Assembly: GCA_017420455.1 (NCBI GenBank)
Contig: JAFOJB010000528.1
Location: forward strand, 1 to 13,717
Length of the DNA stretch: 13,717 bases
Reading direction: 5' to 3'
Source of the DNA: Blautia sp.
GTDB taxonomy: Bacteria > Bacillota > Clostridia > Lachnospirales > Lachnospiraceae
The translations under genes were made by a program, and so were the position numbers. How positions within the stretch are numbered: position 1 is the first letter of the stretch; the number at the start of each line of letters is the position of its first letter. The notes under the pieces are model-generated. The model did not search any database, was not told the origin of the DNA, and saw only the letters and a list, made by a program, of their open reading frames with translations. This document shows, piece after piece, positions 228 through 9,104 of this stretch.

Positions 228-298
228 ATACAAAGTATTTTTGGAAGAAACATGATACGATCGGAAAAATGACCACTGCAGAAAAGGAAGAGAAGAAA

Positions 299-1054
299 AT
301 GAAATTGGTTTCATGGAATGTAAACGGGATAAGAGCCTGCCTGACCAAAGGCTTCCTGGAGAGCGTTAATTCGCTGGATCCTGATGTCATCTGCCTGCAG
401 GAAACAAAATGCCAGAAAGGCCAGGTAGAAGTAGAACTGCCGGGGTACCACATGTACTGGAACTATGCCAGCCGGAAGGGCTATTCCGGGACAGCGCTTT
501 TCTCCAGAACCGAACCGGAAGAAGTAACCTGCGGCCTGGGAATCGAAGAACACGATAAAGAAGGGCGGGTCATCACCGCTTCCTTCAGAGATTTCCATCT
601 CGTCACCGTCTATACCCCCAACTCCCAGGAAGGCCTGAAAAGACTGGAATACCGGCAGATATGGGAAAAAGATTTCCTGGCATACCTTTTAAAACTCCAG
701 GAAACAAAACCAGTGATCTGCTGCGGAGACATGAACGTCGCACACAAAGAGATCGACCTGAAAAACCCCAAAACCAACCACATGAACGCAGGGTTCACAG
801 ACGAAGAACGCGAATGCTTTTCCAGGGTGCTGGAAGCCGGTTTTATCGATACCTTCCGCTATTTTTACCCCGATCAGGCTGAAATCTACTCCTGGTGGTC
901 CTACCGCTTTAAGGCCAGAGAAAAAAATGCGGGATGGAGGATCGATTATTTCCTGACATCACCCTCTCTGAAAGAAAGACTCGTAGACGCAAAAATCCAC
1001 ACACAGATCCTGGGGTCAGACCACTGCCCCGTAGAACTGGATTTAAAGGATTAA
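299..1054 (+). CDS. xth: exodeoxyribonuclease III / AP endonuclease
   Basis: This is an Mg2+-dependent AP endonuclease and 3'-5' exonuclease of the exonuclease-endonuclease-phosphatase fold, which cuts abasic sites in base excision repair. The protein has 251 residues, normal for the ExoA/Xth family. It begins [13 protein letters not shown], which carries the conserved Asn7. Other visible active-site landmarks are LQETK (Glu35), YTPN (Tyr105), GDMN (Asp144, Asn146), RIDYF (Asp216) and the terminal GSDHCP (Asp241, His242). The start at 299 is preferred to the in-frame ATG at 269 because family proteins start at MKLVSWN and AAGGAAG (284-290) sits 8 nt upstream. It is the first gene of a tight cluster; the next gene begins 14 bp after its stop. 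All catalytic residues appear intact. Confidence 0.96.
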
Positions 1055-1068
1055 AACAGGAGGATCCC

Positions 1069-2940
1069 ATGACAGACCGAGGACAGAATTTAAGGATAAA
1101 AAAAGGTTTTATCCTGCAGAATGGGATAAACCTTCTGGAAGGAGGATACAATTTTACCATGGAAGCCCCTGAAAAGGCAGAGGTTTCCCTCCTCCTGTAC
1201 AGGAAAAACGCCAGAAAGCCAATGAAGGAAATCCCGCTGACAGAGGAATACCGTCAGGGCAGGATCCGTTCCGTCCGTGTAGAAGGACTGGAAGCAGACA
1301 GCTTCGAATACAATTACCGGATCAACGGCAAAGTATGTCCGGACCCAAGAGCCAGAGTATTCTGCGGACGGGAAAAGTTCGGGACACCCTGGAACAAGGA
1401 CGAACACGCATTCCGCTGCGGACTTCTTCCTGCGGACGATTTCGACTGGGAAGATGAAACTCCGCCCCGGATTCCCTACGAGGATATGATCCTGTACAAG
1501 CTTCAGGTACGGGGCTACACAAAGCAGATGAACACCGTGACAGCATCAAAAAGAGGAACCTTCGCAGGCCTCGTCGAGATGATCCCCTACTGGAAAGGCC
1601 TGGGCGTCAATGCCATTGAACTGATGCCCTGTTATGAGTTTCAGGAAGTTTCAAAGGATACCCTGCCGGAAGGGATGGTTTCCCTGCGGAACAAAGAGAA
1701 CAAGGTCAACTGCTGGGGATATATTTCCGGATACTATTTCGCTCCGAAAAGATCCTTCTGCGCCGGCACATCCCCGGAAAATGAATTCCGGGAACTGATC
1801 AAGGCCCTGCACAGGGAAGGCATGGAATGCATTATGGAGTTCTATTTCCCACAGGGAACCAATGCGGTATATGCCCTTTCTGCCATGCAGTTCTGGAAAC
1901 TCTTTTATCATGTGGACGGCTTCCACATCCAGGGCGACGGCTTCCCCATCCGGATGGCACTGGAGGACGGTCTTCTTTCAGAAACGAAAATGATGGCCCA
2001 GGATTTCGATTTCCAGGGCTTTTACGGAAATGAACCGCCCCAGGTCAAAAGCAGCGCCATCGTGAACAGAGGCTTTCTGGAGGATATGCGGCGTTTCCTG
2101 AAAAGCGATGAAGAGATGGTGGGAAAAGCCATCTATCACATGCGGCACAATTCCAGAAACTACGGCATCGTCAATTATATCACCTCCCAGGACGGTTTCA
2201 CACTGCAGGACCTGGTATCCTACAATTACAGGCATAATGAGGAAAACGGCGAAAACAACCAGGACGGAAGCTCCTACAACTATTCCTGGAACTGCGGCGT
2301 AGAAGGACCTACCCGGAAAGCGCAGATCCTGAAAATACGGGAACGTCAGAAAAAGAATGCCATGCTTCTGCTCCTGCTTTCCCAGGGGACCCCCATGATC
2401 TACGGAGGAGACGAGTTCGGCAACAGCCAGAAGGGCAATAACAACGCCTGGTGCCAGGACAATCCCACAGGCTGGACAGACTGGAAGTCTGAGAAAAAGA
2501 ACGAAGCCTTCGAAAACTTCGTCCGTCAGGCCATTGCCTTCCGGAAGGAGCATCCCATACTGCACATGAAAGAAGAGCTTCGGGGAAGCGATTACCTGGC
2601 AAAAGGAACTCCGGATATCTCTCTTCACGGGGAACGGGCATATTATGTAAGCTATGACAATACCAGCAGGATGTTCGGGATAATGTACAATGAATCCTAC
2701 GCCTGCACGGAAAATAAGGAGGAAGACTCCAGAGAATATCTGTATATCGCCTGCAATTTCCACTGGGAGAACCGGCAGCTTGCCCTGCCGAACCTCCCGT
2801 CCGGCGTCTGCTGGAGGAAAGTAGCGGATACCATGGAATCGGAGACCTTTCTTTCTGAGCCGGTACCGGTACAGGAGAAAAATGTATTCTGCGGACCCAG
2901 ATCTGTCCTGATCCTTCTGGGAAGAGAGGAAGGAAAATGA
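1069..2940 (+). CDS. GlgX/isoamylase-like GH13 protein, predicted catalytically dead
   Basis: The 623-residue protein has the layout of bacterial glycogen-debranching/isoamylase GH13 enzymes. An N-terminal beta-rich CBM48-like part covers roughly residues 1-110, followed by a (beta/alpha)8 barrel and a C-terminal beta domain. Diagnostic blocks are well kept: GFTLQDLVSYN (about 376-386), the following HNEENGENNQDG, SWNCGVEGPT, and GTPMIYGGDEFGNSQKGNNN. The four GH13 catalytic blocks are not. Region I, normally DVVxNH, reads EFYFPQ (257-262). Region II, normally GFRFD, reads GFHIQ (284-288), so the Asp nucleophile is Gln288. The region III acid/base Glu is Gln311 (MMAQDFD). The region IV HD is QD (374-375). 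I infer a non-hydrolytic role such as glucan binding or regulation. ATG 1069 is chosen because AGGAGG lies at 1058-1063; the longer frame back to 934 overlaps xth. The gene overlaps the next by ATGA. Confidence 0.9.
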   Translation: MTDRGQNLRIKKGFILQNGINLLEGGYNFTMEAPEKAEVSLLLYRKNARKPMKEIPLTEEYRQGRIRSVRVEGLEADSFEYNYRINGKVCPDPRARVFCGREKFGTPWNKDEHAFRCGLLPADDFDWEDETPPRIPYEDMILYKLQVRGYTKQMNTVTASKRGTFAGLVEMIPYWKGLGVNAIELMPCYEFQEVSKDTLPEGMVSLRNKENKVNCWGYISGYYFAPKRSFCAGTSPENEFRELIKALHREGMECIMEFYFPQGTNAVYALSAMQFWKLFYHVDGFHIQGDGFPIRMALEDGLLSETKMMAQDFDFQGFYGNEPPQVKSSAIVNRGFLEDMRRFLKSDEEMVGKAIYHMRHNSRNYGIVNYITSQDGFTLQDLVSYNYRHNEENGENNQDGSSYNYSWNCGVEGPTRKAQILKIRERQKKNAMLLLLLSQGTPMIYGGDEFGNSQKGNNNAWCQDNPTGWTDWKSEKKNEAFENFVRQAIAFRKEHPILHMKEELRGSDYLAKGTPDISLHGERAYYVSYDNTSRMFGIMYNESYACTENKEEDSREYLYIACNFHWENRQLALPNLPSGVCWRKVADTMESETFLSEPVPVQEKNVFCGPRSVLILLGREEGK

Positions 2941-3506
2941 AAGCGATCGACCATTTCAGGACTATCACAAAGCACCATATCCTGGTCAGGAATTACTGCT
3001 TCCGGGCAGGGATGTACTGGCAGGGGCTGACCCACGACCTTTCCAAGTATTCCCCGGCAGAGTTCCTGGTGGGGTGCCGGTACTATCAGGGAAACAGGAG
3101 CCCAAACAACGCGGAACGGGAAGCCACCGGCGTCTCTATGGCCTGGCTGCATCACAAAGGCAGGAACCGGCACCACTTCGAACACTGGGTAGATTATTCG
3201 CTGGATCCGGACTATGTCATCATGGGCGCCAGAATGCCGAAAAAATACATCGCCGAGATGGCGATAGACCGGATCAGCGCCTCCCGGATCTACATGGGAG
3301 ACAGCTACACCAATGCCTGCCCGCTGGAGTACTTCCTGAAAAGCAGGGACAAGCTCTGGTTTGTGGAAAAGCATACCAAAAAAGAGCTTGAGGGGCTTCT
3401 GCGGATTCTGGACCGGTATGGGGAGGACTGCCTCTTACGGTATATCCGATACGGATATCTGAAGGGAATTTCCTGGAAACAGTATAAAAATAAAAATAAC
3501 TATTGA
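2937..3506 (+). CDS. DUF5662-like His/Asp-rich protein
   Basis: This is a 189-residue, probably cytoplasmic protein with no signal peptide or membrane segment. It resembles the uncharacterised DUF5662 family of Clostridia; I assign the family from memory of its LTHDLSKYSP and LHHKGRNRHHFEHW signatures. Visible potential metal ligands are His13-His14, His33-Asp34, His72-His73, His79-His80, Glu82-His83 and Asp111. The order H...HD...HH...HH...D is reminiscent of HD-type metal phosphohydrolases, but that is inference. The start codon overlaps the GH13 stop as ATGA (2937-2940), with a purine-rich GGAAGG-type RBS just upstream, so translational coupling is likely. The stop codon overlaps the putP -35 element. 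The function is unknown. Confidence 0.85.
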   Translation: MKAIDHFRTITKHHILVRNYCFRAGMYWQGLTHDLSKYSPAEFLVGCRYYQGNRSPNNAEREATGVSMAWLHHKGRNRHHFEHWVDYSLDPDYVIMGARMPKKYIAEMAIDRISASRIYMGDSYTNACPLEYFLKSRDKLWFVEKHTKKELEGLLRILDRYGEDCLLRYIRYGYLKGISWKQYKNKNNY

Positions 3507-5470: not shown

Positions 5471-6058
5471 ATGGATACACCGACCATCGCCGCATATTAT
5501 AAAGAAGCTGACCCTATGAAGCGGAAGAAGCTTCTGGAGGAATCCATCGCCAATGGAGAAGATCCGGAAATGAACCGGATCCGTGAGGAGCTCTGGGAAA
5601 TCCGGTACAGGGAAAAGGGATATTCCGGCGGCCCGGAGAGGGCAGATGGCTTTCTGGGACTCTGGATGACCCTGGAATTCAACAGGAACGCCGGAAACAG
5701 GCTCTTCGGAAAAAAGAGCATAAAAAAAGACATCATGAAGCACCTTTCCAGACTCGAATTTGAGCGGTTCTGGAATGGAAGCGAAATGGAGAAGGAAGCC
5801 TTCTACCGGGAATGCTGCCATATGGTCTGGATATATATGCAGCTGTGCGAGACGGACAAGGCCTACAACACTTACCTGATGGGGCTTATGGGGATGAAGA
5901 AGGAGCAGTCGGAGAACAAGCTGATCCGGGATATCATTGAAACGGGCATAGAGCTTCCCGAAGTGATCGGGATGGGGACAGAACTGGAGGCCGTCACAAA
6001 AGCAGCCAGAGAGATGTTCGCCCTGAAATTCCCCCAGGAGGCCGGCAGCCTTCGATGA
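5471..6058 (+). CDS. uncharacterised soluble protein
   Basis: The 195-residue protein is charged and Glu/Lys-rich, predicted mostly helical, with no signal peptide or transmembrane helix. I do not recognise a functional domain; it may belong to a Lachnospiraceae-type DUF family (DUF6553 is a guess I cannot verify). Visible features are an N-terminal EADPMKRKKLLEESI helix, a central RADGFLGLWMTLEFNRNAGN segment (about 57-76), and a CCHMVWIYMQL segment in the middle third, with few aromatic clusters elsewhere. The ATG at 5471 is supported by AGAGGAG at 5457-5463, 7 nt away. Codon use and composition resemble the neighbours. The stop TGA overlaps the ATG of a possible 31-codon ORF. It precedes the M16C peptidase gene in the same orientation and is probably co-transcribed with it. 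Confidence 0.8.
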   Translation: MDTPTIAAYYKEADPMKRKKLLEESIANGEDPEMNRIREELWEIRYREKGYSGGPERADGFLGLWMTLEFNRNAGNRLFGKKSIKKDIMKHLSRLEFERFWNGSEMEKEAFYRECCHMVWIYMQLCETDKAYNTYLMGLMGMKKEQSENKLIRDIIETGIELPEVIGMGTELEAVTKAAREMFALKFPQEAGSLR

Positions 6059-6170: not shown

Positions 6171-9104
6171 ATGCTGAACAAAGACAGACTGACAAAATAT
6201 GAGATCCTTCTGGAGGAGGATCTGCCGGATATACGGTCCAGAGGAACGGTGCTCCGGCACAGAAAGACCGGCGCACGGATCATGCTGCTGGAGAACGAGG
6301 ATGAAAACTAGGTGTTTAATATCGCCTTCCGCACGCCTCCCAGGAACAGCACCGGCGTAGCCCATATTCTGGAACACAGTGTGCTTTGCGGTTCCCGGGA
6401 ATTTCCCCTGAAGGATCCCTTTGTGGAGCTGGTAAAGGGTTCTTTAAATACCTTCCTGAACGCCATGACCTACCCGGACAAGACCTGTTATCCGGCGGCA
6501 AGCTGCAATGACCAGGATTTCCAGAACCTGATGCATGTGTATCTGGATGCGGTATTCTACCCGAACATTTACCGGAAGGAGGAAATCTTCCGGCAGGAGG
6601 GCTGGCATTATCAGCTGGAGGAGCCGGACGGCCCACTGGCCATCAGCGGCGTTGTCTACAATGAAATGAAAGGGGCCTTCTCCTCTCCGGACGAGGTCCT
6701 GGAGCGGGAGCTGATGAACTCCCTGTTTCCGGATACGCCCTACGGCTGTGAATCCGGCGGAGATCCGGACCATATTCCGGAGCTTACCTATGAGGCCTTC
6801 CTGGAATTTCACCGGACGTATTATCATCCCTCCAACAGCTTCATCTATCTGTACGGAAATATGGATATGAATGAGAAGCTGGACTTCCTGGATGAAAAAT
6901 ATCTCTCCTCCTTCGATCATCTGGATGTAAAATCCCAGATCCCGGGCCAGCCTCCCTTTGAAAAAAACTTCGATATTACAAAGGAATATCCCATCGCAGA
7001 GGAAGAGGATGAAGAGGAAAACACCTATCTTTCCTATGTAAGAACTGCCGGCAGCGGAGAGGACAGCGTGCTCTGTACAGCCTTTGAGGTCCTGGATTAC
7101 GCACTTCTTTCCGCCCAGGGGGCTCCGCTGCAGAAAGCCCTTCTGGAGGCGAAGATAGGAAAGGATATTTATGGATCCTTCGAGGACGGTATCCTGCAGC
7201 CGTATTTTACCGTGATCGCCAAAGGGGCCAGAGCGGACCAGAAGGATCAGTTCCTGGAGATCGTCGAGAAAGTCCTCAGGGAGCAGATCGCGAACGGCAT
7301 TGACAGAAAGGCTCTGGAAGCCGGGATCAGTTCCATGGAATTCAAATACCGCGAAGCGGATTTCGGCTCTTATCCCAAGGGACTGATGTACGGGCTGGAT
7401 ATCCTTGGAAACTGGATCTACAGCGATGAGGATCCCTTCTCCCAGGTAAAGCTCCTTGCGGTGTTCGATTACCTGAAAAAGGCGGCAGGCGAAGGGTATT
7501 TTGAGAAGCTTGCGGAAAAATACCTTCTTTCCAATCCTCACGGCGGCAGCCTTACCCTTGTTCCGAAGAAAGGGCTGCAGGCAGAGAAGGAACAGAAGCT
7601 GGCCGAGGAACTGGAGGCCTATAAGAATTCTCTTTCCAGGGCAGAACAGGATGATCTGGTGGAAAAAACGGCAGCTCTTCTGGCATATCAGGAGGAAGAG
7701 GAGGATCCGGAAAACCTCCGCTGCATCCCCATGCTGAAAAGAGAGGATATCAAAAAGGAAACTACAAAGATTTTCAACGAAGAATATGACCTTTCCGGCA
7801 GTCTGTTCCTTCATCATCCTGTGCCCTCCAACGGCATTGCCTATCTGGATCTGATGTTCCGTATTTCCGAGACAGATCCGGAGGAGATCCACTATCTGGG
7901 GCTTCTGAAGAGCGTGCTGGGTCTTCTGGATACCGGAGCCCATACCTACGGGGATCTGTGCAACGAGGTCAACGTTCATACCGGCGGAATGAATTTCGGA
8001 GTGGAGATTTTCGAGAGCCCGGATTATCAGGACTGGTTCCAGCCTTATTTCTCCCTGAAGGGAAAAGCCCTGTATGATAAAATGCCGGTCTATTTTGAAC
8101 TGGCAGAGGAGGTCCTCTTTACCAGCGCTCTCTCTGATACCGGCCGCCTCTACGAGATCGTGGCGGAAAAGAAGGTCCAGGCTCTTTCGGACATTATGAG
8201 CGGGGGGCACGGCGCCGCGGTGATGCGCGCCGCATCCTACAGTTCAAAACAGGCTCTGTTCCAGGAACATATGGGCGGCATCAGTTACTATCGTTTCCTG
8301 GAAAAGCTGGAGCGGGAATTCGACCAGCGCAAGGAAGAGACCGTGAAGCATCTCGAAGCGCTTCTTCGCAGGATCCTCCGGAAGGAAAACTTCTGTGTCA
8401 GCTGTGCCTGCGAGGAAGACGGACGGAAGGCGGTGATGGAGCTTTCCGAAGCCTTCCGGGAAAAGCTTTACGATGAGCCCCTTAACTATACTCCGGCAGC
8501 GGTCCTTCAGCCGGAAAAGAAAAACGAAGGCTTCCAGACCTCCGGACAGGTACAGTATGTTGCCCAGTCAGGGAATTTCCTGAAAAAGGGATATGCCTAT
8601 ACCGGTGCGCTCAATATCCTGAAGGTGATCATGAGCTATGACTATCTCTGGTCCAATGTCCGGGTAAAGGGCGGTGCCTACGGCTGCATGAGCAACTTCA
8701 AGAGAAACGGCCAGACCTTCTTTGTCTCCTACCGGGATCCCCACCTTAAGAGAACCCTGGAAATCTACAGGGGAATACCGGATTATGTAAGAAACTTTAC
8801 GGCTGATGAACGGGAAATGACGAAATATGTGATCGGAACCATCAGCAACATCGATGTGCCGAAAACCCCGGCGATGCTGGGAAGTATCTCAAAAACAGCG
8901 TATTTTAACCATGTTACAATGGAAATGATGCAGAAGAGCAGGGATGAGATCCTGACAGCGGCCCAGGAGGATATCCGGGCACTGGCGCCTTACATGGAAG
9001 CCGTGCTTTCCGATGAACAGATCTGTGTACTGGGCAGTGAGTCCGCTGTGGGGAAAGCCGGAGACGTGCTGGACCACATCGAATCCCTGGTCCGCGGGAA
9101 CTGA
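6171..9104 (+). pseudogene. M16C zinc metallopeptidase (presequence protease-like), interrupted by in-frame TAG
   Basis: This is a large M16C/insulinase-type peptidase, a cytoplasmic zinc protease that degrades peptides within a closed clam-shell of four homologous domains. From ATG 6171 (AGGAG at 6156-6160) 46 codons are followed by TAG at 6309-6311. The same frame then continues 930 codons to TGA, for a total of 977 positions, the normal family length. The two pieces join as ENEDEN-stop-VFNIAFRTPP, where relatives usually have Lys at the stop position, so a single AAG to TAG change explains the break. The second piece holds the inverted zinc motif HILEH (His65, Glu68, His69 of the full count) and the third ligand Glu165 in NEMKGAFSSP, plus the C-terminal RVKGGAYG block. 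Reinitiation could occur at GTG 6312 (GAGG at 6297-6300), giving a protein without its first strands but with the zinc site. The rest of the frame is undamaged, which suggests a recent mutation, a sequencing error or readthrough. Confidence 0.9.

Follow-up and report, generated by a model that had tools for sequence, protein, structure and literature searches.

The window, that is, the whole stretch of 13,717 nucleotides that was analysed, contains a gene for a GlgX/isoamylase-like protein located between an exodeoxyribonuclease III-like gene, which is presumably xth, and a gene of the DUF5662 family (Table 1). The tight operon described in an earlier sequence-only reading of this DNA holds for these neighbours, with a 14-nt gap after the upstream gene and a short overlap with the next one. 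The frame is intact, as that reading had it, being open from its ATG to its TGA. The segment to which it pointed, 1819–2196, does span the four catalytic blocks, but the gene itself is the longer 1069–2940. A relative of the exodeoxyribonuclease III-like gene is present on 53/80 homologous loci.

Two further genes of the window deserve mention. A DUF6553 gene (PF20190) lies at 5471–6058 (+), and a relative of it is found on 14/80 homologous loci along with an M16-type peptidase gene. In the window, the latter carries an in-frame TAG at 6309–6311 (+), which is codon 47 counted from ATG 6171. This codon is Lys in the relative on locus L047, and the listed open reading frame restarts at GTG 6312. 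The TAG could be either a true nonsense change or a draft-assembly error.

Table 1. Position of the genes and of the residues discussed, in window coordinates.
Feature	Position	Strand	Description
Exodeoxyribonuclease III-like gene	269–1054	+	Pfam: Exo_endo_phos; second in-frame ATG at 299
Ribosome-binding site and spacer	1058–1068	+	AGGAGG 1058–1063, before ATG 1069; direct reading
GlgX/isoamylase-like gene	1069–2940	+	623 aa; ATG 1069, TGA 2938–2940; putative CBM48-like N-domain, TIM barrel without nucleophile and acid/base, C-terminal beta-sandwich
W216 and Y218	1714–1722	+	By spacing, S. venezuelae GlgX W222 and Y224
Former region I	1837–1854	+	E257-F-Y-F-P-Q262 replaces DVVxNH
Former region II	1912–1935	+	VDGFHIQG; GFRFD changed to GFHIQ; nucleophile Asp to Gln288
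Former region III	1999–2001	+	Acid/base Glu to Gln311
Former region IV	2188–2193	+	Q374-D375; His lost, catalytic Asp kept
E395	2251–2253	+	By spacing, S. venezuelae GlgX E470
N459 and W461	2443–2451	+	By spacing, S. venezuelae GlgX N534 and Y536
DUF5662 (PF18907) gene	2937–3506	+	4-nt ATGA overlap with the stop of the GlgX-like gene

Loss of the catalytic residues

The catalytic blocks were aligned with those of E. coli GlgX (locus L098) and of intact GlgX from the same genus. The alignment confirms the changes that had been noticed in regions I, II and III (EFYFPQ, GFHIQ and Gln311), and the numbering of Gln288 and Gln311 is exact when counted from 1069. The claim that every block is replaced is right as regards QD for HD in region IV but is overstated, because Asp375 is kept there. 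The Asp-Glu-Asp triad and regions I–IV that define GH13_11/GlgX are therefore absent, the third Asp being the only one that the window protein retains. Two shortened segments had been overlooked: the one between regions I and II has 21 residues vs 65–66 in 35 intact enzymes, and the one between regions II and III has 23 vs 35–37.

By its sequence, the window gene belongs to a large clade of seemingly non-catalytic GlgX/isoamylase paralogues, which for brevity are called dead GlgX here. Homologues were taken from 80 loci of genome records (the best 80 of 550), from 120 listed proteins and from the loci of the genome draws described below. After removing open reading frames shorter than 560 aa (dead) or 600 aa (intact), identical sequences and those more than 97% alike, and once a truncated canonical row (L193) had been taken out of the dead group, the sets comprised 152 dead and 35 intact proteins, the window's own included. 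None of the 152 dead proteins has the full triad. Asp occupies the nucleophile column in 1/152, Glu the acid/base column in 16/152 and Asp the stabiliser column of region IV in 84/152, and all three columns are canonical in 35/35 intact proteins. Among the closest relatives, i.e., the 120 proteins listed, the respective counts are 0, 6 and 117, again with no triad. No intact triad was seen elsewhere in the barrel in the alignments. The segment between regions I and II measures 20–24 residues in all 152 dead proteins, and the deletions of active-site loops are common to all of them.

The weight that had been given to Gln at the two carboxylate positions is not borne out by these sets, in which both sites drift. 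The nucleophile column holds V, L, M, N, I, K and others, with Gln in 5/152 dead proteins and in 11/120 of the closer set. The acid/base column holds T, E, D, H, Q and others, with Gln in 11/152 and 26/120, respectively. In both sets only the window's own sequence combines the two Gln residues, so this part of the argument falls away.

Fold and domains

The preserved GlgX/isoamylase fold that had been proposed is found, with profile and fold matches that span the whole length of the protein and exclude chance. The GH13_11/GlgX architecture is present (N-domain, (beta/alpha)8 barrel and C-terminal beta-sandwich), and the fold of the predicted model matches those of ISA1 and GlgX over the full length. 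With Pfam, the window protein scores 40 bits for alpha-amylase, and the isoamylase C-terminal domain stays sub-threshold. With NCBIfam TIGR02100 (GlgX) it reaches 332.8 bits, below the equivalog cut-off of 640.9 bits, a value that is also narrowly missed by 16/25 canonical proteins of the genus (618.9–632.9 bits). Pfam did not find PF02922 (CBM48) in the window protein; this domain is precomputed in 12 among the 120 homologues listed, and by analogy the N-domain can be regarded as CBM48-like. The motif ExR(x)6R of the c-di-GMP-regulated S. venezuelae GlgX is absent from the first 120 residues of the window protein, and it occurs within the first 130 residues of 6/152 dead proteins. An extra N-terminal beta-sandwich of the ISA2 type is not seen in the model, which aligns with GlgX and ISA1 from residue 9, so that another N-terminal domain would not fit.

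A clade under purifying selection

A maximum-likelihood tree was built from 36 dead and 20 intact proteins, and a branch with 100/100 support separates the former from the latter. The dN/dS ratios were calculated by the Nei-Gojobori method for pairs with dS below 1.5. The median for the dead clade is 0.073 for 45 pairs and 0.079 for 19 disjoint pairs, with a range of 0.036–0.171; before de-duplication it was 0.072 for 65 pairs. The values for intact GlgX are 0.046 (5 pairs) and 0.040 (4 disjoint pairs). The dead clade is under looser constraint than intact GlgX, yet it is far from neutral. The frames of the homologues examined are open except at contig breaks.

The clade has lost the nucleophile, the acid/base, region I and the active-site loops, whereas the GH13_11 fold has been kept under purifying selection. 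The sequence-only reading had seen in the single window protein a selected pseudoenzyme with preserved fold instead of decay. The supported branch, the common deletions, the lack of the triad in 152/152 and a dN/dS of about 0.07 uphold this, and the homologues, like the window protein, lack the canonical residues. There is good support for reading the clade as pseudoenzymes, a reading that applies much more broadly than could be seen from one sequence, and the function given below is a proposal. Together with the retained sugar-contact residues described below, the pattern suggests a protected non-cutting role, perhaps in sensing or organising stored glycogen. None of the papers listed by the literature searches, whose coverage includes few subscription papers, deals with dead GlgX in bacteria.

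In loci L178–L183 and L241–L248, from several genera, the dead form is shortened at former region III too, mostly with NP after VDGFxx. Four of these forms were placed in the tree and share one 100/100 branch. The erosion of the active site can apparently be followed one step further in such forms.

Distribution among genomes

The dead protein was found, by score and split match, in 35/35 genus relatives, each at least 90% complete, and 14 of these proteins were inspected as sequence. Full-length intact GlgX is present in 25/35, and the one locus per genome that was inspected is canonical in all. The other 10 gave no full-length GlgX match, every first-look candidate having been scored in 6 of them and 15 of 16–21 candidates in the remaining four (G012, G025, G027 and G029). 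In ten family genomes in which all candidates were scored (G138, G187, G221, G224, G269, G285, G318, G351, G407 and G409), only the dead protein matches at E<=1e-40. Intact GlgX was not found in the window's own draft assembly, which is 78% complete.

At a larger scale, 393 genomes were evenly drawn from the order, and the best 3 first-look candidates were scored per genome. The dead-clade profile matches 201/220 family genomes at E<=1e-40. Three of these (G295, G365 and G372) have the canonical form only, and after subtracting them the dead protein is judged present, by score, in 198/220, of which 91 were inspected. Region II is readable in 90 of these 91, and GFRFD appears in none; in one dead protein (L229) the nucleophile column is Asp. 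Outside the family, 19/173 order genomes match the profile, with scores like those of intact enzymes; the eight inspected (G036, G039, G055, G057, G089, G115, G135 and G162) are all canonical, and the other 11 have intact-range scores. A phylum draw of 299 genomes, which holds few family genomes and for which the best 4 candidates per genome were scored, gave 3 matches at E<=1e-70. One comes from the genome of the window, another from a family genome that carries dead GlgX, and the third is a canonical protein. Since the order and phylum draws scored the best 3–4 candidates, the absence of intact GlgX is taken from the genus and ten-genome sets. Co-occurrence with glgC says little, because glgC is present in 378/393 order genomes; the three family genomes without glgC, all of one genus, are also without the dead protein.

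The DUF5662 neighbour

The window's DUF5662 protein scores 119.9 bits (E 9.7e-35), which passes the Pfam gathering score of 27 bits. In 34/35 genus relatives this gene lies directly downstream of the dead GlgX gene, and in the other one (G020) it is elsewhere. It was found within 1.4 kb in 72/77 loci with enough flank of the genome-record set, in which close relatives are over-represented because it comprises the best 80 of 550, as well as in 26/30 top order loci (window counted) and 12/17 divergent loci. The figure in a hand-picked sample, 11/40, is biased low because the loci were picked partly for lack of an adjacent DUF5662. Several carriers of the dead protein (e.g., G060, G091 and G110) have no DUF5662 match in the genome, DUF5662 is present in 226/393 genomes of the order draw, and it also occurs in other families of the order, without any dead protein having been seen in them. 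The link between dead GlgX and DUF5662, though real, is not universal.

Across 36 DUF5662 sequences, the residues H13, H33-D34, H72, H73, H79, H80 and D111 are invariant, a set which we take to resemble the metal ligands of HD domains (H...HD...D), whose fold is all-helical. Fold searches gave weak matches, and the protein is possibly an HD-type metal-dependent hydrolase. No paper using the name DUF5662 was found in the literature searched. One fused dead GlgX-DUF5662 protein exists, P0115 (1 member), which may be a frameshift artefact because over 631 residues it shares 99% identity with the unfused cluster P0120 (7,977 members).

Two observations were made on the surroundings. In 11 loci (L069, L075, L078, L080, L204, L205, L212, L213, L217, L233 and L236), a gene for a small TraX-like membrane protein, as read by eye, comes after the dead GlgX gene, and in some of them it sits between this gene and DUF5662. 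On locus L161 there is a second, different-looking type of DUF5662 within a longer open reading frame (312 aa by ATG; 343–349 aa in other frames), a type found in a few genus relatives.

Sugar-contact positions

The sugar contacts of S. venezuelae GlgX that served for comparison were W222, Y224, E470, N534 and Y536, as given in the available text of PMC9530166. At the corresponding positions of the dead proteins (Table 1), W216 is found in 152/152 and Y or F at 218 in 152/152, E395 in 134/152, N459 in 152/152 and W or Y at 461 in 152/152. In the dead clade, the sugar-contact columns hold while the catalytic columns drift. For Arg212 of the same contact set no equivalent could be placed in the dead proteins, and the Trp380 equivalent is aromatic in only 102/152. 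Keeping four contacts of four is not extraordinary, because 54/108 of the columns that the dead clade shares with intact GlgX, and that do not vary in the latter, are still conserved to at least 90%, and the retained residues may be structural instead of sugar-binding. In the model, pLDDT is below 50 for the conserved loops 384–401, 408–415 and 459–461, which contain E395, N459 and W461.

Function and alternative explanations

The glucan sensor or partner suggested earlier remains the best guess, given that the contact columns are kept. We think it somewhat probable, on balance, that this member of the clade still binds glucan and, on glycogen, has the role of a regulatory or scaffolding subunit. 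It would bind alpha-1,4/1,6-glucan (glycogen or maltodextrin) via W216/Y218, E395/N459/W461 and the CBM48-like N-domain, and would occupy branch points or chain ends as such a subunit. In many genera it would also carry or control the co-translated DUF5662 protein, and glycogen turnover would be modulated by it. A more ambitious version can be put forward tentatively, in which glycogen turnover in Lachnospiraceae passes through a near-universal ancestral dead paralogue. As a bacterial analogue of ISA2 with an independent origin, this protein would read the branch structure of glycogen and would produce, in many genera with a co-translated DUF5662 hydrolase, a regulatory or nucleotide signal.

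It seems rather unlikely that the dead paralogue is an obligate subunit of the ISA2 kind, forming a heteromer with intact GlgX and tuning its activity, even if the fold and the kind of loss are as in ISA2 (available text of PMC12510319) and both proteins coexist in 25/35 genus relatives. The other 10/35 and the ten family genomes have the dead protein and no GlgX match. Pairing with intact GlgX need not be obligate, as several carrier genomes show none, and since the protein is also retained in genomes that yielded no intact GlgX, being a GlgX subunit is probably not its whole role. In a variant of this explanation, the partner could be a pullulanase or another GH13 protein.

That the protein serves DUF5662 alone, as a regulatory or allosteric partner, with glucan binding as a relic and the barrel as a protein-protein scaffold, is in our opinion quite improbable. 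Gene overlap and adjacency over many genera point in this direction, and the conserved loops that are unordered in the model could form a partner interface. In some genera, however, the dead protein occurs without a DUF5662 match in the genome, in others DUF5662 is elsewhere, and the sole fusion is the doubtful P0115.

Neofunctionalisation, in which the polar barrel residues E257, H286 and D375 would form a new active site, is very unlikely. At position 257, 149/152 have E, Q or D, and H286 is kept in 121/152, but no catalytic-type set is invariant: D375, in spite of its frequency among the closer relatives, is N, E, Y, T or others in 68/152, and the active-site loops are deleted. Finally, a decaying pseudogene or damaged allele, for which the missing catalytic residues and nothing beyond would speak, is refuted by the low dN/dS, the presence in most family genomes and the 100/100 branch, and the open frames and the shared deletions also argue against it.

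Annotation and relation to known systems

The only kind of name shown for homologues in the protein listing is "Type II secretory pathway, pullulanase PulA and related glycosidase". Annotation pipelines may therefore count the dead protein as a debranching enzyme, and by score it is carried by 198/220 of the sampled genomes of this major gut family. Counting it as GlgX would mislead pathway reconstruction for the 10/35 genus relatives that gave no match to an intact enzyme. In the published survey of PMC10395257, as far as its available text goes, Blautia obeum has two glgX homologues, and the dead form may be one of the two.

Compared with GlgX/TreX (TIGR02100; PDB 2wsk, 2vnc and 7u3b), dead GlgX shares the whole-length fold, the W-G-Y and GNNNxxCQDN motifs and the acarbose-contacting residues outside the catalytic set. 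It differs in lacking the nucleophile, the acid/base and region I, in its shortened I-II-III loops and in scoring far below the TIGR02100 cut-off. In eukaryotes, the AMPK beta-subunit is said to be a glycogen sensor and BAM9 is reportedly a non-enzymatic starch regulator. Both would be cases of non-catalytic glucan binding or regulation too, in unrelated whole-protein architectures.

Within bacterial glycogen metabolism, GlgD is a regulatory subunit of GlgC (available text of PMC10395257), a parallel in that a regulatory subunit stands beside a catalytic one, although the enzyme and the pathway step differ. Inactive prokaryotic GH13 proteins are on record, as a review of archaeal glycogen marks "one inactive isoform" among the GH13 counts of some archaea (PMC11046441, in the part available).

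The closest comparison is with plant ISA2 (PDB 9j6x and 9xvi). According to the available text of PMC12510319, this non-catalytic isoamylase is conserved across the green lineage and affects the extent of glucan crystallisation, and its role is called unclear and the reason for its continued selection not understood. Maize ISA2, from the same paper, sets a precedent for glucan structure being shaped by an isoamylase without catalysis. ISA2 has an extra N-terminal beta-sandwich and complexes with ISA1 (PMC12510319 and PMC12516185, in the parts available). Like ISA2 as described there, dead GlgX has a GH13_11 fold, has lost the nucleophile and most catalytic residues clade-wide and is selected. 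Unlike ISA2, it is bacterial, has no extra N-terminal beta-sandwich, is linked to DUF5662 and is often present without intact GlgX, and its active-site loops are deleted relative to intact GlgX. The dead GlgX clade is apparently a bacterial counterpart of ISA2 that would have originated independently, the tree having been built without ISA2. We think that it offers a bacterial system for asking why a non-catalytic isoamylase stays selected, the question that the available text of PMC12510319 raises for plants.
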